From a virus, in IMG/VR virus record IMGVR_UViG_3300031974_002528, positions 32,019 to 96,018 of that record: a DNA stretch of 64,000 nucleotides, one strand, 5' to 3'. The position numbers were made by a program, and so were the translations under genes. The notes beneath the pieces were generated by a model that was not told the origin of the DNA, searched no databases, and saw only the letters and a list, made by a program, of their open reading frames with translations. The stretch's first letter is position 1. Each line of letters opens with the position of its first letter. Positions 20,389 through 56,040 of the stretch are shown here, piece by piece.

Positions 20389-22341
20389 ATGTCTGCTTGG
20401 AATAGCATACCGATAAAGATCCTAAACTCAAGCGGCGATCTTAAACAAATGACCTTGTTGGAAGAAGAACTCTTCGCCAACGAAGGTGGTCTTGCACTTG
20501 TCGGTGCATTCGATTCAGTAGGTAAACGATATTCCGGTGCTATTACCTTAACGAATACTGCTGAAGATTCTGCTATTGGTACTTTTACCGATACGTTCTA
20601 CACTGATCCAATCGGAACGCACCCAGGAACGTCCATTTCCGCACCATCAACTACCACTACAACATTGTATCAGATGTTGGACTCAGTTTATGAGGTGCCA
20701 TTTGATGGCGTAGTTGAGAACATGATTGTTGTAGATTCAGACGGTGGATTACACCCTATGGATTCTGCGAGTTATGAACTTCTTGCTCTCAGAGTAAACG
20801 AAATTGTCCATTCTGAAGAAAGAGTTGGAACTTTCAGGTTGTCCTCTACTCAACCATCAGCAGAATACGAAAAATGGATTGATACTTGCTTCAGTGATAC
20901 TAAAACTGACGGGACAACTGATTATCATATTTGGCGCAAATTCACAATCAATGTTGACTCAGAAGTATATTATCCAATTAAACGAATAAACGATTTTGAT
21001 TTTCAGGAGTTGTCGGCATCAGAAGTTGGTGAAATCGGTAACGGTATGATTCGTTATGGGTACTATACGAACGGAGTTGGTGAATACGAACTGCGCTCTT
21101 CAGCGCAAGGTGCTCCAACTGCTTCCGGAACTTGGGAAGCAAGAGGAACTGCTGTTGATACAAAGAACACCACACAGATTCTGCAATATGCTGGAACTCA
21201 GTATACTGGACAGTTCGCTACTCAGTACAGTGGACAGTACACTGGGCAATACACAAGATTAAGGTATGAAAATCCTCCCGCAACTTTCCTCGGTGTAAGG
21301 CAAGTTCTTTTTAGTGGATCACGAACTAAATCTGAATCCTTTGCTGGCGTTAGAGCAAATCCTGTAAACTTTGCGGGAACTCGTCAGTTTGCGGGGTCAA
21401 GGAACTATGCTGGGCAATACACAAGCGCCACAACACAGTTTACTTCTGCCTTGACTAACTTCTTGGGCGTGAGACCAGCAACAGATTATGTTCCAATGAC
21501 CTTTACTGCTTTCGGAACATCCTCTTACCTTGGTTCTAGAAACTTCCTAGGAACTAGACCTGCTCCAGGAACCTTCACTGCTAATATTGCATCATCCTAT
21601 GTGGGTGTTAGGCAAGCAAACTTCGCAGGAACTCGCTCTTATTCTGGAATACGCAGTTATACAACCTTTGGTGCGCCTACTCCTGGCACCTTTGTTGGAC
21701 CAGCATTTTACACTGGTCAAAGATTAGGCAACACCGCACCTTTTGAAGCAGGTTTTCCGAATTTCTTTTCAGGGGTGAGACCAGGACCAACGAATAACTT
21801 TGTTGCGGTATCTGAAAACTTCTCTGGACCTGTTACGAATTTCTTGGGACCTGCTCCTGCAACTTTTACTGGATTCCCAACTTATTCTGGAGTCAGAGCA
21901 ACACCTGCTAACTTCCTAGGAAATAATTATTTCGCATCCACTAACTATATTGCATATTCTGGGGTTCGTGCTTTCTTAGGAACTAGAGCAGCAAACTTCC
22001 CAGGAACTAGACAGTTTGCTGGCACTAGGCAGTTTGCTGGTTCAAGAAACTATGCAGGACAATATACAAGTGCACCTGTTAACTTCTTAGGAGTCAGAAA
22101 CTTCGCAGCAAACTATACTGGCAACCGAAACTATGCTGATCAGTACTTGGGTCCTTCTAGTATCAACTTCACCGGAACAAGATCAGCAACATACACTGGT
22201 TATTATGCAGGGCAGTACACTGGACAATACACTAGATACTATACGAGACAGTTTGGTAATCAATATGCTGGCGAAACTCTGGTGGCAGTGCCAGTAGATG
22301 TGGAAACATATACACTATATACAAGGGTGTCAGCAACTTAA
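20389..22341 (+). CDS. Tail fibre with aromatic-x-Gly-x-Arg repeats (paralogue 1)
   Basis: A 650-residue protein in three parts. Residues 1-260 form a head with SAIGTFTDTFY, GTHPG and 'YELRSSAQGAPTASGTWEAR'. Residues about 260-625 are short repeats of 7-12 residues with the cores Phe/Tyr-x-Gly-Thr/Val-Arg (FAGTR, FLGVR, FAGSRNYAGQYT) and YTGQYT. The last 20 residues end in ETYTLYTRV. The protein at 23659 shares all three parts, so the two arose by duplication. The repeats suggest a regular elongated fold with Gly turns and exposed Arg/Tyr. A glycosyltransferase gene lies between the paralogues. Receptor binding is inferred; no catalytic motif is seen. Confidence 0.7.
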   Translation: MSAWNSIPIKILNSSGDLKQMTLLEEELFANEGGLALVGAFDSVGKRYSGAITLTNTAEDSAIGTFTDTFYTDPIGTHPGTSISAPSTTTTTLYQMLDSVYEVPFDGVVENMIVVDSDGGLHPMDSASYELLALRVNEIVHSEERVGTFRLSSTQPSAEYEKWIDTCFSDTKTDGTTDYHIWRKFTINVDSEVYYPIKRINDFDFQELSASEVGEIGNGMIRYGYYTNGVGEYELRSSAQGAPTASGTWEARGTAVDTKNTTQILQYAGTQYTGQFATQYSGQYTGQYTRLRYENPPATFLGVRQVLFSGSRTKSESFAGVRANPVNFAGTRQFAGSRNYAGQYTSATTQFTSALTNFLGVRPATDYVPMTFTAFGTSSYLGSRNFLGTRPAPGTFTANIASSYVGVRQANFAGTRSYSGIRSYTTFGAPTPGTFVGPAFYTGQRLGNTAPFEAGFPNFFSGVRPGPTNNFVAVSENFSGPVTNFLGPAPATFTGFPTYSGVRATPANFLGNNYFASTNYIAYSGVRAFLGTRAANFPGTRQFAGTRQFAGSRNYAGQYTSAPVNFLGVRNFAANYTGNRNYADQYLGPSSINFTGTRSATYTGYYAGQYTGQYTRYYTRQFGNQYAGETLVAVPVDVETYTLYTRVSAT

Positions 22342-23658: not shown

Positions 23659-25794
23659 ATGGCGAAACCTTACAAATTACCAATTATTCAAAAAGATGCG
23701 TCTGGCAATTTGCAAAGGGCGACTTCTACCAATGAGAACTATCTCGCGTATCAGGCGGGATTGCGCTTTGCTGAAAGAGGGACTCTTGGTCCCACTGCTA
23801 TTAAATCATCTATTACAATCGCGCATAGAGATTCTGCCATTGGTTCATACACTGACACTTTCTATAACGAAGCAGTAGGAACACACCCAGGATCTTCACT
23901 TTCTATTGGATCGACCACAACTACTCTCTATCAATTAAAGGGTGATAGTGCTTCCGGAGCAGTAAAACTGGACGACCAGAGTACGGGATTGTTTCGTCGT
24001 CCTGTTTATGAGTCGGACGGTAACATATTTGATATGGATTCTGATGCTATGGATGGCATCGGGCAATCGCTCATGTCAATTATACAGTCAAATGAATATC
24101 CTGGATCGCAAAGACTTGCTGCCTCTGCTCCGAGCGGAGACTGGTCTGCCACTCTTTCTAATGTTTTTACTGATACAACTACAGATGGCAATGTAACTCA
24201 GTATAGTATTTGGCAGAGACAGACTATTACTGCTCCTGCTAAATGTAATGCGATGCACGTCAAACGAACACAGTATGGTTCCTATCCTCTAGCGTCATAT
24301 GATGGTGGTTTAGAAGCGATGACTGATTCAGAGATGTCGCTTACCTTTGGACAGATAGCAGGAAAATATTTTAGGCATGGAGAAGTCGGTACATACGAAC
24401 TACGCTCATCGGCACAGGGCGCACCTACGAGAACAGGAACTTGGGAAGCACGTGGTACAGCTGTAGACACTCGTTATACTACTGCGGACCAACAATACGC
24501 AGGTCAGTACACTGGATATTCTAATGTTCAATATTCTGGTACTAGGAACTACGCTGCCACTTATACTTCTCCTGCCAATTTTACTGGAGTGCGAGCATTT
24601 GGTGGTTCGAGAAACTATGCTGGTAACTATACAAGTCCTGCCAATTTTACTTCTCCAGCAGTTTTTGCGGGAACGAGACCAGCAAACTATGCTGGTGTAA
24701 GAACAGGTTCTTATGTAGGAAACCGTGCATTTAACTTCCTTGGCACCACCCCAGCAAACTATACTGGACCAAGAAGTTTTGCTGGTACAAGAGCAGCAAA
24801 CTTCCTAGGAACAACTCCAACATATTACGTTGGACCCAGAAGTTTTGCTGGTACGAGATCTGCTGCATTTGGAGGTGTTACGCCAACATATTATGTTGGA
24901 CCAAGAAGTTTCTTGGGTCCAAGAAGTGCTTATTTCTCTGTCACCACCCCTGCAAACTTTGCGAGATCCGTTTACTTCGAAGGAGCGCAACAAACATTTG
25001 GTGGATCTGCAAACTTCAATGGTCCAATGCCAGCAAACTTTGGCGTTTATCAGTCGTTCTTGGGTGTTGGCGGTTATCAAGGGGCAAGGGTATTCACTCG
25101 TTTCCAACCTTTTGAACCACTCCCCTTTACTGGATTGCGCTGGTTCCAAGGACCGAAGAACTTTAACGGTTGGCGATTATTCGCTGGATCGAGAACTTGG
25201 CAGTTTGCTGGCACCAGAAACTATGTCGGTCCTCGTGGGTATCTTGGGGTAAGAAACTATCTTGGCAGTAGAACATCATCTTATCTCGGCACAAGAAACG
25301 CATACTTCGCCGCGAACTTTAACTTCTTGGGAACCACTCCAGCGAACTATACTGGTGTGAGACCAGGAAGTTTTGCGAGCAATAATAACTTCCTCGGAGT
25401 AACACCAGCAAACTATTCTGGAGTGAGGGCAGGAAACTTTGCATCAAATGCTGCTTTCCTAGGTGTAACTCCCGCAAACTATTCTGGTGCGAGATCTGGT
25501 ACTTTCACCAGTCCAGTCCCTGGCACCTTTGCTGGTTTTGCGAATGCTAACTTCACAGGTATTCGAACATTTGGTGGTACCAGATCCTTTGGTGGATCTA
25601 GAAACTATGCAAGCTCTAACTACCTCACACCAGGAACATTTTTGGGCATACGAGGATTTGCTGGATCAAGAACTTATACTGCGAACTTCACTGGAAACTA
25701 TACTGCTCAATACACTGGGCAATACACTGGTGCGACACTAACTAATACTCCGGAGACGATTGAAACTTATACGCTATATGTGAGAGTTGATTAA
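23659..25794 (+). CDS. Tail fibre with aromatic-x-Gly-x-Arg repeats (paralogue 2)
   Basis: A 711-residue paralogue of the fibre at 20389. The head (residues 1-270) shares SAIGSYTDTFY, GTHPGSSLS, TTTTLYQ and 'YELRSSAQGAPTRTGTWEAR'. Residues about 275-690 are repeats of FAGTR, FLGTTPANYTG, YVGPRSFAGTR and YLGVRNYLGSR type, with a longer alternating period in places (ANYTG/FLG[TV]TP pairs). The C-terminus (ETYTLYVRV) matches the other copy. Several repeats are closely similar in series around 24720-24960 and 25320-25500, suggesting recent expansion by recombination. The gene has its own TATAAATA promoter and a stop overlapping an in-frame TTG of the next gene. Confidence 0.7.
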   Translation: MAKPYKLPIIQKDASGNLQRATSTNENYLAYQAGLRFAERGTLGPTAIKSSITIAHRDSAIGSYTDTFYNEAVGTHPGSSLSIGSTTTTLYQLKGDSASGAVKLDDQSTGLFRRPVYESDGNIFDMDSDAMDGIGQSLMSIIQSNEYPGSQRLAASAPSGDWSATLSNVFTDTTTDGNVTQYSIWQRQTITAPAKCNAMHVKRTQYGSYPLASYDGGLEAMTDSEMSLTFGQIAGKYFRHGEVGTYELRSSAQGAPTRTGTWEARGTAVDTRYTTADQQYAGQYTGYSNVQYSGTRNYAATYTSPANFTGVRAFGGSRNYAGNYTSPANFTSPAVFAGTRPANYAGVRTGSYVGNRAFNFLGTTPANYTGPRSFAGTRAANFLGTTPTYYVGPRSFAGTRSAAFGGVTPTYYVGPRSFLGPRSAYFSVTTPANFARSVYFEGAQQTFGGSANFNGPMPANFGVYQSFLGVGGYQGARVFTRFQPFEPLPFTGLRWFQGPKNFNGWRLFAGSRTWQFAGTRNYVGPRGYLGVRNYLGSRTSSYLGTRNAYFAANFNFLGTTPANYTGVRPGSFASNNNFLGVTPANYSGVRAGNFASNAAFLGVTPANYSGARSGTFTSPVPGTFAGFANANFTGIRTFGGTRSFGGSRNYASSNYLTPGTFLGIRGFAGSRTYTANFTGNYTAQYTGQYTGATLTNTPETIETYTLYVRVD

Positions 25795-50336: not shown

Positions 50337-52051
50337 TATATTTCACATCGGTTAGATACAAAAACTTTTTGTCCACTGGTAACAACTGGACGGATATAAG
50401 TTTAGATGCGAGCAAACACACATTAGTTGTTGGACAAAACGGTTCGGGTAAATCAACTATGCTCGATGCTATCTCGTTCGCATTGTTCGGCAAAGCGCAC
50501 AGAAACATAAATAAACCACAACTGGTCAACTCGGTCAACGATAAGAAGTGTGAAGTAGAGGTGGAGTTTACTATCGGTGCTAAAAAGTACAGGGTGTTTC
50601 GTGGATTAAAACCTGCGAAGTTTGAGATATATGTTGACGGTACTCTGCTCAATCAAAACTCTCACAACAAAGAATATCAAAAAGTCCTAGAGCAGAATAT
50701 TCTGAAGTTGACCCATAAAACATTTCATCAGGTAGTGGTACTTGGTTCTTCTTCCTTCACTCCATTTATGCAACTGTCTGCGTTCAACCGTAGGGAAGTG
50801 ATCGAAGATCTACTTGATATCGGCGTGTTCTCTAAGATGAATGCGTTGCTGAAAGAACGAAACTCAGCATTGAAAGAAAAGATTAATCAAGCATACCATG
50901 ACATTGAGATTAACGAAACCAAAACTGAAGCACAAAAGAAATACATTCGCGATATCTCTAAACTCAATCATGATGCTAAACAGGAAAAAGAAGAACTCAT
51001 CCAACGATACAAGGATGAGAAAGAATCACATATTAATAGCATCACAGAACTGACTGATAAAATCTCTGGGAACAGTATAGGATTAGAAGAAGAACTCACT
51101 CAAGCGAGATCTGCTTTGGTCGATCTTCAATCTGCCAATACTGAAATAAAAACTAAAATCAAAGCATTAGTCAAGGAAACACGATTCTATGAGAACAACC
51201 AGACCTGCCCCACCTGTGAGCAAGACATCGACGAGCAACTCAAAAGAGGGAAAATCGAGCAAGCAAAAGTCACAGCAACAGAGTTTCAATCATCTCTTGC
51301 TAAAATCACAGAGGAAACAGCAGAAGTAACCGAGCGTCTTGCTGAAGGCGAGTCTAGGTCAAGTCAGAATCAAGAATGGAGAAACGAGATACAAACGCAT
51401 CAAGATTTGATTAACAAGTGTAACTCGGAAATACAGATTGCTGAGTACGACATTGAAAACTTGTCCGATGATAAATCAGATCTTGCTAAGGCGAACGACG
51501 ATTATGATGTTCTAGTAAAAGAATACCATGAGTTGATGGACACTAGAAATAAACTAAATGATACAGCAGCATACAACAGTGTGATAGCAGAGATGCTGAA
51601 GGATACTGGCATCAAAACTAAAATCGTAAAACAATACTTGCCTGTTATCAACAAGCTCGTCAATCAGTATCTGTCTATCCTAGACTTCTATGTTCACTTT
51701 GACCTTAACGAAAGTTTCCAAGAAACTATACGATCGCGCCACCGTGATTCGTTTACCTATGACTCTTTCTCTGAGGGCGAGAAGCAACGTATCGACTTGG
51801 CGCTCTTGTTTACTTGGCGACAGGTTGCTAAGATGAAGAACAGTATCAGTACTAATCTTCTCATCCTTGATGAGACGTTCGACTCATCGCTAGATGAAGC
51901 AGGTATCGAAAACCTAATGAAGATTATTCATACTCTCGGCGAAGATACCAATGTGTTTATCATTTCACACAAAGGTGAAATGCTTGAGGGTAAGTTCGAC
52001 TCTAAGATTGAGTTCGTTAAAGATAAAAACTTCTCGAAGATAGCAGCATGA
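50333..52051 (+). CDS. gp46: Recombination nuclease subunit gp46 (Rad50-like)
   Basis: A 572-residue SMC-type ATPase (T4 gp46 is 560). Walker A is GQNGSGKS at 34-41. Long coiled coils (about 170-290 and 300-400) flank the zinc hook CPTC at 292-295. The C-terminus has 'FSEGEKQRIDLALLF' (ABC signature) and NLLILDETFDSSLD (Walker B and D-loop). It controls the gp47 nuclease. Stop overlaps the next start by four bases. Confidence 0.96.
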   Translation: MIYFTSVRYKNFLSTGNNWTDISLDASKHTLVVGQNGSGKSTMLDAISFALFGKAHRNINKPQLVNSVNDKKCEVEVEFTIGAKKYRVFRGLKPAKFEIYVDGTLLNQNSHNKEYQKVLEQNILKLTHKTFHQVVVLGSSSFTPFMQLSAFNRREVIEDLLDIGVFSKMNALLKERNSALKEKINQAYHDIEINETKTEAQKKYIRDISKLNHDAKQEKEELIQRYKDEKESHINSITELTDKISGNSIGLEEELTQARSALVDLQSANTEIKTKIKALVKETRFYENNQTCPTCEQDIDEQLKRGKIEQAKVTATEFQSSLAKITEETAEVTERLAEGESRSSQNQEWRNEIQTHQDLINKCNSEIQIAEYDIENLSDDKSDLAKANDDYDVLVKEYHELMDTRNKLNDTAAYNSVIAEMLKDTGIKTKIVKQYLPVINKLVNQYLSILDFYVHFDLNESFQETIRSRHRDSFTYDSFSEGEKQRIDLALLFTWRQVAKMKNSISTNLLILDETFDSSLDEAGIENLMKIIHTLGEDTNVFIISHKGEMLEGKFDSKIEFVKDKNFSKIAA

Positions 52052-52563
52052 AACTCGCGCAAGTCGTAAAAGGGTTCTTGGACATTGACACTGCGAATCA
52101 ATACGCAGATAGAATGGAAAGCATGAAAGAAAATATGCAGTTTGATGACGGTCAATGTAGAAACTCTTGGGCAATCTATGGTGCAAACTGGGACTTACTA
52201 GAAGATTCTCTCGAGAAGATGGAATCTATTACTGGATTAGAACTCATTCCAACTTACGACTATTGTAGAATATATTCCGTAGGAGAAACCTTAGAGAAGC
52301 ACAGCGATCGTCCTGCTTGTCAAGTCAGTGTCACTGTTTGCCTTCGCAATGAAAAATCTCCTTGGGAGTTTCATTGGGATGGTGGTTCATATGCTATGGA
52401 ACAAGGTGACGCAGTAGTATACCACCGCCCATTGATGCACTGGAGAGATTCTAATCCAGATGGTATGGTTTACCAATCCTTCTTACATTACGTTGATGCC
52501 AATGGACCGCATTCTGATTGTGGTAATGAGTACCTTAAAGGTGCAAAGAAACATAATAAATGA
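52048..52563 (+). CDS. 2-oxoglutarate/Fe(II) oxygenase (P4H-like)
   Basis: A 171-residue compact dioxygenase. The jelly-roll core reads YDYCRIYSVGETLEKHSDRP with His85-x-Asp87, then VSVTVCLRN, 'YAMEQGDAVVYHRPLMHWRD' with His131, and a last strand QSFLHYV. The 2-oxoglutarate anchor normally Arg/Lys about 10 after the distal His is not obvious. It is similar to small prolyl-4-hydroxylase-like genes in marine phages. The substrate is unknown. It overlaps gp46 by four bases and the next small gene by four bases. Confidence 0.75.
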   Translation: MKLAQVVKGFLDIDTANQYADRMESMKENMQFDDGQCRNSWAIYGANWDLLEDSLEKMESITGLELIPTYDYCRIYSVGETLEKHSDRPACQVSVTVCLRNEKSPWEFHWDGGSYAMEQGDAVVYHRPLMHWRDSNPDGMVYQSFLHYVDANGPHSDCGNEYLKGAKKHNK

Positions 52564-52730
52564 AGAAATATATTCCCAAGAAGAAATCAATGAAGTACAA
52601 TGACCTCGCCTCTTTATCTAAGGAAATGACTGAAAACGGGATCAAACATAAATACAACGGATTAGAGATACGAACCAAAAGTCAAAAGTTTACAATGGTT
52701 GATTCTCAGGTATTGACTTTTGATTTGTGA
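52560..52730 (+). CDS. Small basic protein, unknown (56 residues)
   Basis: The ATG overlaps the previous stop as ATGA. The product starts MKKYIPKKKSMKYNDLASLS and ends VLTFDL, with a Lys-rich N-terminus and a mixed beta end. The sigma70-type promoter at 52713 lies in its last codons. No family is recognised; the tight overlap and filling of the gap support a gene. Confidence 0.5.
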   Translation: MKKYIPKKKSMKYNDLASLSKEMTENGIKHKYNGLEIRTKSQKFTMVDSQVLTFDL

Positions 52731-52741
52731 TTTAGTAGAAT
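52713..52741 (+). promoter_or_regulatory. Sigma70-type promoter of the TET/JBP gene
   Basis: -35 TTGACT, 17-base spacer, -10 TAGAAT, only 8 bases from the gene start, so the leader is very short and contains AGGAA. Confidence 0.72.
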
Positions 52742-52748
52742 AGGAACT

Positions 52749-54173
52749 ATGAACGAAAAAATCAAACACGGAAACTACACTTGGGACTGGTTCACTGGTG
52801 ACGAAGGTCAAGATGTATACATTGCTAACTTCATAGAGTCTGAAGACAAAGTCCTTGGTCAGTTTGTTGACGAGGAACACTATGACATCTTGATTGATAG
52901 AGATACAGATTTTTATCTTCCGAGTAACTCGTTGACAGGTGATACTCTAAACGAGGATCGTATTGCGTTTAAGTTCCGCAAGGGTGTGTTTACTCAGGAA
53001 GAACAGGACGGTGCTCTTGAAGGGTTGTATGGCGCAGCAGTTGAGTCGAACAATCGTGGTCTAGCAGCAGGTCCGAGGGAAGGCAAGTCATATGGTCGCG
53101 AGTGGGTCACTGCGTTTCAAAGTAGAGTCCTCGATTGGTACATCAAAGGGCAACCGCCAAGCATCGACGGATCTGATCCGTTGGAAGAGATTGCTAAAAG
53201 CAGCAACGATGAGCAGGCGAGAGGCGAAGTTTGGTTGACGACTGCTATTGAGAAAGAGTTCGGCGAGTATGATGGGTTCTTTCCGAAACTAATGGTGCGA
53301 CTTTCTGAGTTGACCAAGGGTCTTGGTTATTCTCCAGATATTCATGCAGCATCAATATATGCTCAGCGTGTTCGTGATACCATGATCTCCGATACTTCTT
53401 ATGCGACTGCTATCTGGTCAGGTATCGCAGGTTTCTATGGTCGATACCCACGTATCCCATATGGTCGGGCGACTTCATACGTTGACCACAACCGTGAGAA
53501 GTTTGAGAAGTCATATCCGTTCGCTCGTAAACTCGACAAGACTTTCGCCGAGTTGCTTCCTGAACGATACAGCAAGCAGAAAGCATTTGCTGATAGATTG
53601 GACAACCGTTTCTTGATCGGCGAGGATACAACCTTCACTACGATTACAGTGAACACAACCACCAAGGATCGTAATGCACGTATGGCATGCCACCGTGACC
53701 AAGGTTCGCTCGTCCCAGGATTCTCAAACCTGACTGTGATCAGTGACGGTAAGCGAAACTGGAAGGGTGGTTATCTTGTTTGTCCAGAGGTTCGCGTTGC
53801 TATCAACGTTCGACCAGGAGACCTGCTACTCGTTGATAACATGCGAGTGATCCATGGCAACACTCCTATCGAAGCACCCGACTCAGGTGAAGATGACTTG
53901 ATGCGTATGTCTCTGGTATATTACTTCCGCGAGGATATGGATAAGTTGGGTTCTTGGGAGTATGAGTCGTATCGTAAACAATACGTTGATGACCGCCGAC
54001 TTAACAAAGAGCATAAGTTATGGCGCGAGTATTGGAATGGTGTCTCCCCTGGCATGTGGGATGAGACTGAGTGGTATGAATACCTTGAAAAGAAGGGTGG
54101 TAAGTCCATGTTGATGGAATATCATCCTAATGCTTTCCAACAAGCAGGTTCGCTTGAGGAGTTTTTCGGATGA
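52749..54173 (+). CDS. TET/JBP-type 2-oxoglutarate dioxygenase (probable DNA base hydroxylase)
   Basis: A 474-residue protein. The catalytic domain (about 285-400) fits the TET/JBP family: strand FTTITVN, then CHRDQGS with His315-x-Asp317, 'NLTVISDGKRNWKGGYLVCP', VAINVRPGDLLLVDNMRVIHGNTPI with His369, and Arg386 in the MRMSLVYYF strand for 2-oxoglutarate. The order H-x-D, G-G-x-L, P-G-D, H-G is that of base-J and TET enzymes, which hydroxylate the methyl group of thymine or 5-methylcytosine. The N-terminal 280 residues are of unknown fold and may bind DNA. A TET-associated-type glycosyltransferase lies two genes downstream. The base acted on is not known. Confidence 0.75.
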   Translation: MNEKIKHGNYTWDWFTGDEGQDVYIANFIESEDKVLGQFVDEEHYDILIDRDTDFYLPSNSLTGDTLNEDRIAFKFRKGVFTQEEQDGALEGLYGAAVESNNRGLAAGPREGKSYGREWVTAFQSRVLDWYIKGQPPSIDGSDPLEEIAKSSNDEQARGEVWLTTAIEKEFGEYDGFFPKLMVRLSELTKGLGYSPDIHAASIYAQRVRDTMISDTSYATAIWSGIAGFYGRYPRIPYGRATSYVDHNREKFEKSYPFARKLDKTFAELLPERYSKQKAFADRLDNRFLIGEDTTFTTITVNTTTKDRNARMACHRDQGSLVPGFSNLTVISDGKRNWKGGYLVCPEVRVAINVRPGDLLLVDNMRVIHGNTPIEAPDSGEDDLMRMSLVYYFREDMDKLGSWEYESYRKQYVDDRRLNKEHKLWREYWNGVSPGMWDETEWYEYLEKKGGKSMLMEYHPNAFQQAGSLEEFFG

Positions 54174-54577
54174 GAGTTGGGTTTACTTGTAGTGCTTTTG
54201 ATTTGCTGCATGCTGGACATGTACAAATGCTTCGTGATGCCAAAGACCAATGTGATTATTTGATTTGTGGACTACAGGTAGACCCGACTCTTGACCGTCC
54301 TAACAAAAATCAACCTATTCAAACTGTCGTCGAGAGATACACTCAACTCAAAGCAGTTCGCTACGTTGATGAGATTATCCCATACTCTACTGAGGCAGAC
54401 CTAGAAGATATCCTAGCGATGTATCATATCAACGTGCGTATCCTCGGCGAAGAGTATCGGGATAAAGATTTTACTGGTAAAGATATTTGTCGCAAACGTG
54501 ACATCGATCTATACTTTAACAAAAGAGACCACCGATTTAGTTCTAGTGATTTAAGAAAGAGAGTTTGTAATGATTGA
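54170..54577 (+). CDS. Cytidylyltransferase (glycerol-3-phosphate cytidylyltransferase-like)
   Basis: A 135-residue single-domain enzyme (TagD-type enzymes are about 130). It has the FDLLHAGHV motif (His14 and His17 bind CTP), 'YTQLKAVRYVDEIIPY', and FSSSDLRKRV, the variant of the usual R-x-x-G-I-S-T-T loop. Such enzymes make CDP-linked alcohols or sugars from CTP. The gene overlaps the dioxygenase (ATGA) and the glycosyltransferase by 8 bases, so the three are made together. It may supply an activated donor for the transferase; alternatively it remodels host polymers. Confidence 0.8.
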   Translation: MRVGFTCSAFDLLHAGHVQMLRDAKDQCDYLICGLQVDPTLDRPNKNQPIQTVVERYTQLKAVRYVDEIIPYSTEADLEDILAMYHINVRILGEEYRDKDFTGKDICRKRDIDLYFNKRDHRFSSSDLRKRVCND

Positions 54578-55379
54578 TTATCAAATCGCCTGCCCTTCCT
54601 ACCAACGATCTAAGACTATTCAAGATAAGACGTTCAAGGTATTTGAGGAACATAACATCCCACCTGAACGTGTTACTGTTTTCGTTGCGAATGAAGAAGA
54701 GGAAGCAGTATACAAAGAGGCACTTGCTGGACACAAGTATGGAGGCAACATTGTAGTTGGTGTCCCGACTATCGGTGCTCAACGTAACTGGATTGAGAAG
54801 TATTACCCAGAGGGCACTTACCTGATGATGTTTGATGACGACATTGAACAGGTACAACGTAGGAAGGATGAGAAAACTCTAGAACCCATTGATGATCTCT
54901 ACACTGAGATTATTGAACAGGGGTTTAAAAACTGTGAGGAACTCGGTGCTAAAACTTTTGGTATCTACGCAGCTGCGAACGCATACTTTATGAAGGATCG
55001 AGTCTACTCTAAACTTTGTTATATCATTGCTTCTATGTTTGGCGTCATTTGTGATCATGATGAATACCTTGATCGTGTAACTAATCATGGCGAGGACTAT
55101 GAGTATAGTCTGCGACAGTATGTGAAACACGGTGTACTGTGCCGCCTTGATAAATACACAGTGAAGTCCAACTATTACAAAGAGGAAGGTGGACTACAAA
55201 CTATAAGGACTGAGCAATATGTGCATGATTCGATCACCAAGATTGCTGAGATGTTTCCAGATCTTTGCTCTATGTACATTCGTAGTTCTACTGGGCACGC
55301 TGAACTTCGTCTACGAGATAAGAGTGGAGGCAAGTACGAAAAGTCTAGTTCCGTTTCACTAGAAGATTTCTTTGCGTAA
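54570..55379 (+). CDS. TET-associated-type glycosyltransferase (GT-A)
   Basis: A 269-residue enzyme. The start IACPSYQRSKTI, then a VFVANEEEEAVY strand, 'VVGVPTIGAQRNWI' and YLMMFDDDIEQV, with Asp89-Asp90-Asp91 as the metal/nucleotide-sugar motif, match the GT-A family linked to TET/JBP enzymes in phages (TAGT). A later FGIYAAANAYFMK strand and NHGEDYEYSLRQ give the acceptor side and the probable catalytic acid. It would transfer a sugar or similar group to the hydroxymethyl base made by the dioxygenase upstream. The donor is unknown. Family recognition is by motif and context. Confidence 0.72.
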   Translation: MIDYQIACPSYQRSKTIQDKTFKVFEEHNIPPERVTVFVANEEEEAVYKEALAGHKYGGNIVVGVPTIGAQRNWIEKYYPEGTYLMMFDDDIEQVQRRKDEKTLEPIDDLYTEIIEQGFKNCEELGAKTFGIYAAANAYFMKDRVYSKLCYIIASMFGVICDHDEYLDRVTNHGEDYEYSLRQYVKHGVLCRLDKYTVKSNYYKEEGGLQTIRTEQYVHDSITKIAEMFPDLCSMYIRSSTGHAELRLRDKSGGKYEKSSSVSLEDFFA

Positions 55380-55470: not shown

Positions 55471-56040
55471 ATGGCAAATCATGTGAGTCAATACCTCAGT
55501 CTCCGTTCTGAGTTGAATGAGAAGGGTCGTGAGGTTTGGAACGAAATCCTTGGTCGATTGGATCGAGACGATACTCAAGGTGGTGAGAAGCATCTTGGGT
55601 TTGTTTTCTTTGATTCCTACGACGATATGAATCGAGAGAATATGTGCGACCTCGTTGGCGCGAAGTGGGCATACCTTACAGATCATGATGAGTATGGTCT
55701 GTCTATGTATTCTGCTTGGTCACCCTGTATCGAGTTCTGCGCTTACCTTGCTGAACAGATTGGTGTGGTAGATGCTGGCGTTCGCCTCGCCTTGACATAT
55801 GAAGACGAGTTCTGTAACTTTATTGGTTGCGCAGTCTTTGATGCTGGCGGTCTGGAAGATCAAGAAGAACTTGAGAGCGATGAGTTTATCGACATGTGCC
55901 TCGAGAACGATGAAGAACTTCGAGCGCACTTTGACCCTGAAGAACGCGAGTTTGACGAAGAAGGTCAGGAGATGCTCTGGGAAGTTCAATGGGATCGTAT
56001 CTCTGACTGGCAGCACAACTCATTGGAGTCTATGCTTTGA
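55471..56040 (+). CDS. Unknown acidic protein, Api92/DUF1281-like
   Basis: A 189-residue acidic protein. The first part has a helix (VSQYLSLRSELNEKGREVWNEIL), and the middle reads 'VGAKWAYLTDHDEYGLSMYSAWSPCIEFCAYLAEQIG' across 55660-55760, with LTYEDEFCNFIGCAVFDAGG next. The W-A-Y ... S-A-W-S-P ... Y-E-D-E ... G pattern is like the ferredoxin-like domain of Api92-type phage proteins. The C-terminal 60 residues are Glu/Asp-rich. Function unknown. It begins the first of three units with the same promoter. Confidence 0.6.
   Translation: MANHVSQYLSLRSELNEKGREVWNEILGRLDRDDTQGGEKHLGFVFFDSYDDMNRENMCDLVGAKWAYLTDHDEYGLSMYSAWSPCIEFCAYLAEQIGVVDAGVRLALTYEDEFCNFIGCAVFDAGGLEDQEELESDEFIDMCLENDEELRAHFDPEEREFDEEGQEMLWEVQWDRISDWQHNSLESML

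Follow-up and report, generated by a model that had tools for sequence, protein, structure and literature searches.

A predicted DNA hypermodification cassette of a TET/JBP dioxygenase, a nucleotidyltransferase and a TET-associated glycosyltransferase in a virus record

A predicted hypermodification cassette

The 64,000-base stretch of DNA analysed here (hereafter, the window) comprises bases 32019–96018 of the virus record IMGVR_UViG_3300031974_002528, 96,018 bases long, whose structural and replication genes we read as T4-like and probably those of a marine T4-like virus. Between positions 52713 and 55379 of the window, one promoter-like site is followed by overlapping genes for a TET/JBP-family 2-oxoglutarate (2OG)/Fe(II) dioxygenase, an HxGH nucleotidyltransferase and a TET-associated glycosyltransferase (TAGT). 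A preliminary description, made from the letters of the window alone, had proposed that TET and TAGT together hypermodify DNA. Profile searches, predicted folds and gene neighbourhood support this proposal well, and make it highly probable that the cassette serves DNA base hypermodification.

In the scheme that we favour as a whole, on balance rather than firmly, the virus would decorate its own DNA after replication, with TET acting on thymine, the nucleotidyltransferase making a donor and TAGT transferring it. The TET/JBP enzyme, whose family, fold and active site are described below, would hydroxylate thymine in phage DNA at its 5-methyl group to give 5-hydroxymethyluracil, the reaction that JBP carries out in trypanosomes. 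The nucleotidyltransferase would turn a phosphorylated sugar or polyol into a cytidine diphosphate (CDP)- or adenosine diphosphate (ADP)-linked donor, TAGT would place the donor group on the hydroxymethyl oxygen, and the resulting bulky base would shield the phage genome against host nucleases. TET would thereby act as a fixed platform with a swappable decorator, namely TAGT here and, in relatives, a kinase with the amino-acid:DNA transferase ADDT, a UDP-galactopyranose mutase (UGM) module or other glycosyltransferases. Extended to its full scope, that is, to a widespread T4-like lineage using TET as a phage JBP under swappable decorators, be they phosphorylation with amino-acid transfer, TAGT with a donor made by the cassette or galactofuranose-type modules, with the window's version making a new thymine-derived base from a donor other than a uridine diphosphate (UDP)-sugar, the proposal becomes doubtful.

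The three genes were found where the preliminary description had placed them, all on the + strand: the dioxygenase (474 residues) at 52749–54173, the nucleotidyltransferase (135 residues) at 54170–54577 and TAGT (269 residues) at 54570–55379, with overlaps of 4 bases between the first two and 8 bases between the last two. The promoter announced ahead of them was also recovered, as a promoter-like site TTGACT-17-TAGAAT on the + strand (52713–52741; 10 of 12 consensus positions) beginning at the base indicated. This site is the top scorer of the 10 promoter-like sites in the 3.2-kb stretch, to be compared with 6.8 ± 2.5 in shuffles. Among 45 distinct relatives, whose loci are related to one another, 39 carried a site with at least 10 of 12 matches upstream of TET, versus 2.5 expected from dinucleotide shuffles; 27 of these sites lie outside the upstream gene, and the 12 wholly within it may be coding coincidences. 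The site at 52713–52741 and its recurrence upstream of TET in relatives make it likely that the cassette is a single transcription unit.

The motif TATAAATA, which we take to be the T4 late promoter motif, occurs 8 times in the window (2.0 expected) and never inside the cassette, which suggests that the latter is not transcribed late.

Identity of the dioxygenase and the glycosyltransferase

The dioxygenase (52749–54173) belongs securely to the TET/JBP family at the level of profile, motif and fold, as first described. Indeed, it matches the Pfam family Tet_JBP with 55.8 bits, above the curated cut-off of 34.9 (E 4.3e-15), and the HxD...H iron site and 2OG-binding arginine (H315, D317, H369 and R386) do not vary across the 55 sequences aligned. 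Its AlphaFold2 model (51 sequences; pLDDT 88.3) has NgTET1 as top Foldseek match (1.4e-9). In VIA-align, this model is closest to TET2 (5d9y; Z 20.2, root-mean-square deviation (r.m.s.d.) 3.6 over 261 residues), CMD1 (Z 19.7, r.m.s.d. 4.3 over 311 residues), NgTet1 (Z 18.3, r.m.s.d. 4.3 over 245) and CcTet (Z 17.6), the next family being ALKBH3 (Z 13.7, r.m.s.d. 3.2 over 177); TET-type enzymes are thus nearer in fold than other 2OG oxygenases. Hydroxylation of a DNA base is the predicted activity.

TAGT (54570–55379) scores 61.8 bits against PF20691 in Pfam, for a cut-off of 27.5 (E 1.2e-16), and its PHROGs match is phrog_842, beta-glucosyl-HMC-alpha-glucosyltransferase (6.3e-19). The AlphaFold2 model (pLDDT 90.0) adopts a GT-A fold; Foldseek relates it to RmlT, AvpGT and TarS at approximately 1e-6, and VIA-align to POMGNT1 (Z 14.6; 2.9 over 183) and GalNAc-T2 (Z 14.1; 4.8 over 231). 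The acidic metal-site motif expected in such a fold is present: D89, D90 and D176 are invariant in 30 of 30 sequences, the first two being the putative metal binders. These results agree with the initial assignment to the GT-A transferases found with phage TET enzymes, and point to sugar transfer to DNA as the predicted function, with presumed acceptor and donor.

A reading in which the cassette does not act on DNA at all, the oxygenase being a small-molecule hydroxylase and TAGT a surface-polysaccharide glycosyltransferase, has to be considered here. In a single-sequence phmmer search of the PDB, the oxygenase hit clavaminate synthase first, albeit weakly (0.0023), and the 32 kb upstream of the window are, by our own reading of the open reading frames (ORFs), rich in glycosyltransferase-like genes. 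NCBIfam also returned CAS-like matches, weak and far below their cut-offs. However, the profile built from 55 dioxygenase sequences puts TET2 first in the PDB (4.6e-6), profile and fold place the enzyme with TET and CMD1, well above other 2OG enzymes, and its neighbours in relatives are DNA-modification families. The small-molecule hydroxylase was rejected on the grounds of profile and fold, and the reading as a whole is very improbable; the profile searches assigned neither the dioxygenase to a small-molecule hydroxylase family nor TAGT to a polysaccharide glycosyltransferase family.

For three cultured phages (Stenotrophomonas phage DLP6, Caulobacter phage Cr30 and Synechococcus phage S-CBWM1), the database entries call the TET homologues ‘SNF2 DNA repair protein’, with or without ‘putative’, so that searches by annotation miss them.

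Exchange of decorators on one TET lineage

Viral contigs were scanned with TET, the best 80 of 540 relatives being kept, and with TAGT, which gave 44 loci. The resulting set of 109 loci comprises the 80 retrieved by TET and 29 retrieved by TAGT; L092–L094, L117, L119, L132 and L133, which are short or repeat a contig already counted, stand outside it, as do loci lacking a TET longer than 300 residues. Within the 109 loci, ADDT is present in 44 and TAGT in 41 with zero overlap, a TAGT share inflated by the 29 loci retrieved by TAGT, and rates were hence taken from the 80 TET-retrieved loci. These carry ADDT (44), TAGT (13), UGM (6), another glycosyltransferase family (6) or none of these (11), and no two decorators share a stretch (ADDT versus TAGT, Fisher p = 7e-6, relatedness ignored). 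The kinase Ploopntkinase3 accompanies ADDT in 38 of the 44 loci. Adjacency was counted in 107 loci, TAGT-retrieved ones included, with more than 100 bits required and L013, L117 and L119 removed: TAGT lies within 150 bases of TET in 34 (28 + 6) and ADDT in 27.

At least 11 changes of decorator are required along the TET tree. The window's TET belongs to a group of 12 with 100/97 support (eight ADDT, one UGM, one TAGT and two unclassified members), and is nested among TETs whose partners are a P-loop kinase and ADDT. An exchange is visible at closer range in L014–L019, where TET is 87–92% identical to that of the window and adjacent to the nucleotidyltransferase. In L018, whose whole locus was read, an epimerase, a glycosyltransferase, a 342-residue protein of a family without Pfam match and a UDP-galactopyranose mutase occupy the place of TAGT, and L015–L017 have a protein of the 342-residue type and the mutase at the same spacing. 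TAGT is therefore one of several interchangeable decorators on TET, which is most simply explained by a single hydroxylation product feeding alternative transferases.

Three further observations concern these loci. First, the family of 342–344 residues found beside the mutase and near TET (e.g. L018:11545–12573 and L001:16413–17447), of which the C48C1 member lacks a Pfam match, is a candidate for a new transferase. Second, 33 of the 44 loci with ADDT also contain a GATase_6 glutamine amidotransferase (e.g. L020:6150–6626), which adjoins TET in 13 of the 107. Third, a TET-like gene that is short and highly diverged (43–46 bits) follows TAGT in L122–L125 and L127 and forms a separate lineage.

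Thymine or cytosine as substrate

The preliminary description had seen no cytosine-5 methyltransferase in the window and had left the choice between thymine as substrate and a methylase encoded elsewhere. The first statement can be extended: PF00145 was not found in the full 96-kb record, which may be incomplete. Nor was it found in any of 11 records, among them C48C1, DLP6, Cr30 and S-CBWM1, whose deposits are labelled as complete genomes, and a 151,660-base relative with an identical cassette (G001), or in any of 50 TET virus records, many of which are fragments; the control was positive in 10 of 14 genomes. The 50 records are mainly longer contigs, L012, L017, L041, L053, L064, L097, L098 and L115 having been omitted as presumed near-copies. 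The thymidylate synthase/hydroxymethylase family, searched for in the 11 records (G001 among them, the window's own record outside that search), was detected in Cr30 only. Taken together, these searches leave no obvious phage source of 5-methylcytosine (5mC) or of premade hydroxymethyl nucleotides in the others. In G001, one weak candidate for a deoxycytidylate/deoxyuridylate (dCMP/dUMP) hydroxymethylase was tried and failed to pass.

The choice leans towards thymine, which we regard as the probable substrate, both on these searches and on the partners of the sister TETs. Indeed, PF18751 (Ploopntkinase3) and PF18724 (ADDT) are presumably members of the thymine hypermodification route, and one ADDT has a sub-cut-off match to the alpha-glutamyl/putrescinyl thymine pyrophosphorylase (0.0026).

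Several points weigh against this reading. The solved TETs closest in fold are mostly 5mC enzymes; a missing phage methyltransferase is compatible with 5mC made by the host or by an unrecognised methylase; and ADDT may accept hydroxymethylcytosine (hmC). ADDT had no match in G001, despite its identical cassette. Cr30, outside the counted loci, is an exception to decorator exclusivity, as it has ADDT plus a TAGT-like gene below the Pfam cut-off. Finally, TAGT is the only decorator paired with TET in S-CBWM1 and in a second TET clade, so that the argument from kinase and ADDT carries most weight for the clade of the window's TET.

The rival reading is a cytosine route, in which TET oxidises 5mC supplied by the host or by an unrecognised methylase and TAGT glycosylates the 5-hydroxymethylcytosine (5hmC) formed. 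The nearest solved folds do include the 5mC enzymes NgTet1, TET2 and CMD1, and TAGT relatives of T-even phages act on glucosylated hmC, according to parts of two papers (PMC13216743, PMC13390438) in which the name PF20691 is used for the T-even enzyme adding a second glucose to hmC DNA. Yet PF00145 was found neither in the own record nor in any of the 11 and 50 records searched, and the sister TETs are partnered by a kinase and ADDT; we thus consider the cytosine route unlikely and retain thymine.

The active site does not help to decide. Among the 109 TETs, the third position after the HxD aspartate is S in 81, D in 26 and unread in 2; the window's clade has S at this place (S320), the second clade D. 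This is presumably the base-reading position in NgTet1 and TET2; as the S/D split tracks the TET tree, S320 yields no conclusion on base specificity.

Role of the nucleotidyltransferase

The enzyme at 54170–54577, the predicted activator of the transferred group, had been described as a cytidine triphosphate (CTP)-dependent nucleotidyltransferase. The second half of this name holds: CTP_transf_like (PF01467, Pfam) is matched with 52.7 bits, above its cut-off of 21 (6.7e-14), and the HxGH motif reads HAGH at residues 14–17, with H14, G16 and H17 conserved in all 19 phage homologues, as are R119, H121, S124, L128, R129 and R131. The nucleotide is another matter. The heptose-1-phosphate adenylyltransferase model (rfaE_dom_II, TIGR02199) gives 64.0 bits for a cut-off of 181.5, and the glycerol-3-phosphate cytidylyltransferase model (TagD; g3p_cytidyltrns, TIGR01518) gives 63.8 bits for a cut-off of 165.4; with such nearly equal, sub-cut-off scores, neither CTP nor adenosine triphosphate (ATP) can be assigned. 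The best PDB relatives by sequence are ethanolamine-phosphate cytidylyltransferase (1.2e-21) and TagD (1.7e-12), and residues 119–126 do not exactly match RTxGISTT, which we take to be the TagD signature. The CDP-activated donor suggested earlier is possible, as is an ADP-linked one, and the enzyme is statistically tied to glycosylation-type TET records.

This tie is visible in the 50 TET records, of which 10 contain the nucleotidyltransferase: 10 of 24 of the glycosylation type, 0 of 20 of the ADDT type and 0 of 6 unclassified (Fisher p = 0.0009). Without two near-copies (L093 and L018), the figures are 8 of 22 versus 0 of 20 (p = 0.004); both p-values are optimistic, as the loci share ancestry. 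The gene adjoins TET or TAGT in four orders (TET–nucleotidyltransferase–TAGT, nucleotidyltransferase–TET–TAGT, TET–TAGT–nucleotidyltransferase and TET–nucleotidyltransferase–epimerase), and lies 3.5 and 4.8 kb off in two other records. Moreover, the divergent TAGTs of DLP6, L055, L063 and L089 are accompanied by another type of nucleotidyltransferase, which has an APH kinase-like domain (weak in DLP6), and S-CBWM1 has an annotated glucose-1-phosphate thymidylyltransferase two genes after TAGT.

Other results count against a role as donor supplier. In two records, the nucleotidyltransferase is approximately 18 and 22 kb away, and it was not found in 14 of the 24 glycosylation-type records. When the best 80 of at least 597 matches to it were collected, 74 of the 80 loci showed neither TET nor TAGT in the stretch examined; 77 were newly fetched (these 74 among them), the remaining three, L014, L016 and L017, being TET loci. 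Most of the close relatives fetched lie away from TET and beside sugar-nucleotide genes: within three genes of the nucleotidyltransferase (76 loci), a PMM-type phosphatase occurs 50 times, an epimerase 28, a cupin 20 and a sugar dehydrogenase 16. All this would be expected if the enzyme were a passenger serving sugar or lipid metabolism, with TAGT taking a UDP-sugar from the host, in which case DNA glycosylation would still stand. The four gene orders next to TET or TAGT, the restriction to glycosylation-type records and the analogous gene beside divergent TAGTs argue in the opposite direction. We give the passenger appreciable but less than even weight, and put the chance that the nucleotidyltransferase supplies the donor for TAGT at about one half.

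Comparison with known systems

In kinetoplastids, base J is made by the thymine hydroxylases JBP1/2 and a J glucosyltransferase. The logic predicted here is similar, as thymine would be hydroxylated in DNA and its hydroxymethyl group then glycosylated; it differs in that the setting is a phage and the glycosyltransferase belongs to PF20691. Closer in its genes is the cytosine hypermodification by C5-methyltransferase, TET and glycosyltransferase that Burke et al. reportedly described from phages and metaviromes (PNAS, 2021). There as here, TET and a dedicated glycosyltransferase are encoded together in phage DNA, whereas the C5-methyltransferase of that system was not found in the own record, the 11 or the 50 records, a nucleotidyltransferase is added and the decorators are interchangeable with kinase and ADDT.

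The T6 beta-glucosyl-HMC-alpha-glucosyltransferase shares the family PF20691 with the window's TAGT, but adds a second glucose to glucosyl-hmC; the hydroxymethyl group of T6 comes from dCMP hydroxymethylase, not from a TET. TagD and HldE are of the same HxGH superfamily as the window's nucleotidyltransferase, which scores almost equally with both and, unlike them, stays below both cut-offs and carries the six residues invariant in phage homologues noted above.

Iyer et al. (2013) are said to have predicted that TET/JBP products serve as starting points for further modification. The kind of system was predicted earlier; what we met without precedent in the literature searched are the lack of methyltransferases, a TET lineage that swaps its decorators and the linkage of a nucleotidyltransferase to it. 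No phage cassette of TET, nucleotidyltransferase and TAGT is described in the titles and abstract beginnings listed by searches of open-licence literature.

How phages M6, ViI and PhiW-14 hypermodify thymine is treated in parts of two papers (PMC6449724, PMC5977210), where a 5-hydroxymethyldeoxyuridine (5hmdU) DNA kinase and transferases are reported to act on hmdU in DNA (PMC6449724). Relatives of the window's TET resemble this route in carrying Ploopntkinase3 and ADDT. Two differences are predicted: hmdU is made there as a nucleotide before replication, whereas TET would make it in DNA, and the window's cassette would glycosylate instead. Thymidine-hypermodification genes also appear in other marine phages, in the part of PMC9599517 consulted, which does not bear on the window's cassette. 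The paper on DLP6 mentions 18 restriction enzymes, and its section on them contains no clear digestion result; for Cr30, no title on its DNA chemistry was found among the matches listed.

If the scheme is true, prokaryotic viruses have their own equivalent of base J synthesis, and one hydroxylase lineage feeds chemically unrelated DNA decorations through swaps of neighbouring genes. The substrate of phage TETs lacking a methyltransferase becomes directly testable, since the cultured phages Cr30, DLP6 and S-CBWM1 are deposited, and the list of TET contigs is a source for mining new DNA bases and transferases.

Other genes near the cassette

Just upstream of the cassette (52048–52563), a small protein resembles a 2OG-Fe(II) oxygenase, with an HxD...H motif seen by eye; its PHROG match bears the name ferrochelatase, apparently through a labelling error. 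Downstream, four AID/APOBEC models match the gene at 55471–56040 weakly and below threshold (E 0.018–0.038) around SAWSPCIEFCA, probably by chance, as no HxE was seen at the usual upstream distance.

In the upstream part of the window's record, a NodU-type carbamoyltransferase (L005:10533–12059; Carbam_trans_C, 6e-42) lies amid glycosyltransferase-like genes. A carbamoyltransferase from another phage contig, there beside a thymidylate synthase, acts on 5hmC according to part of one paper (PMC8670742). Elsewhere in the window, two proteins between structural genes (20389–22341 and 23659–25794) contain, by eye, many diverged GTRxFAG/YTGQYT-like repeats.

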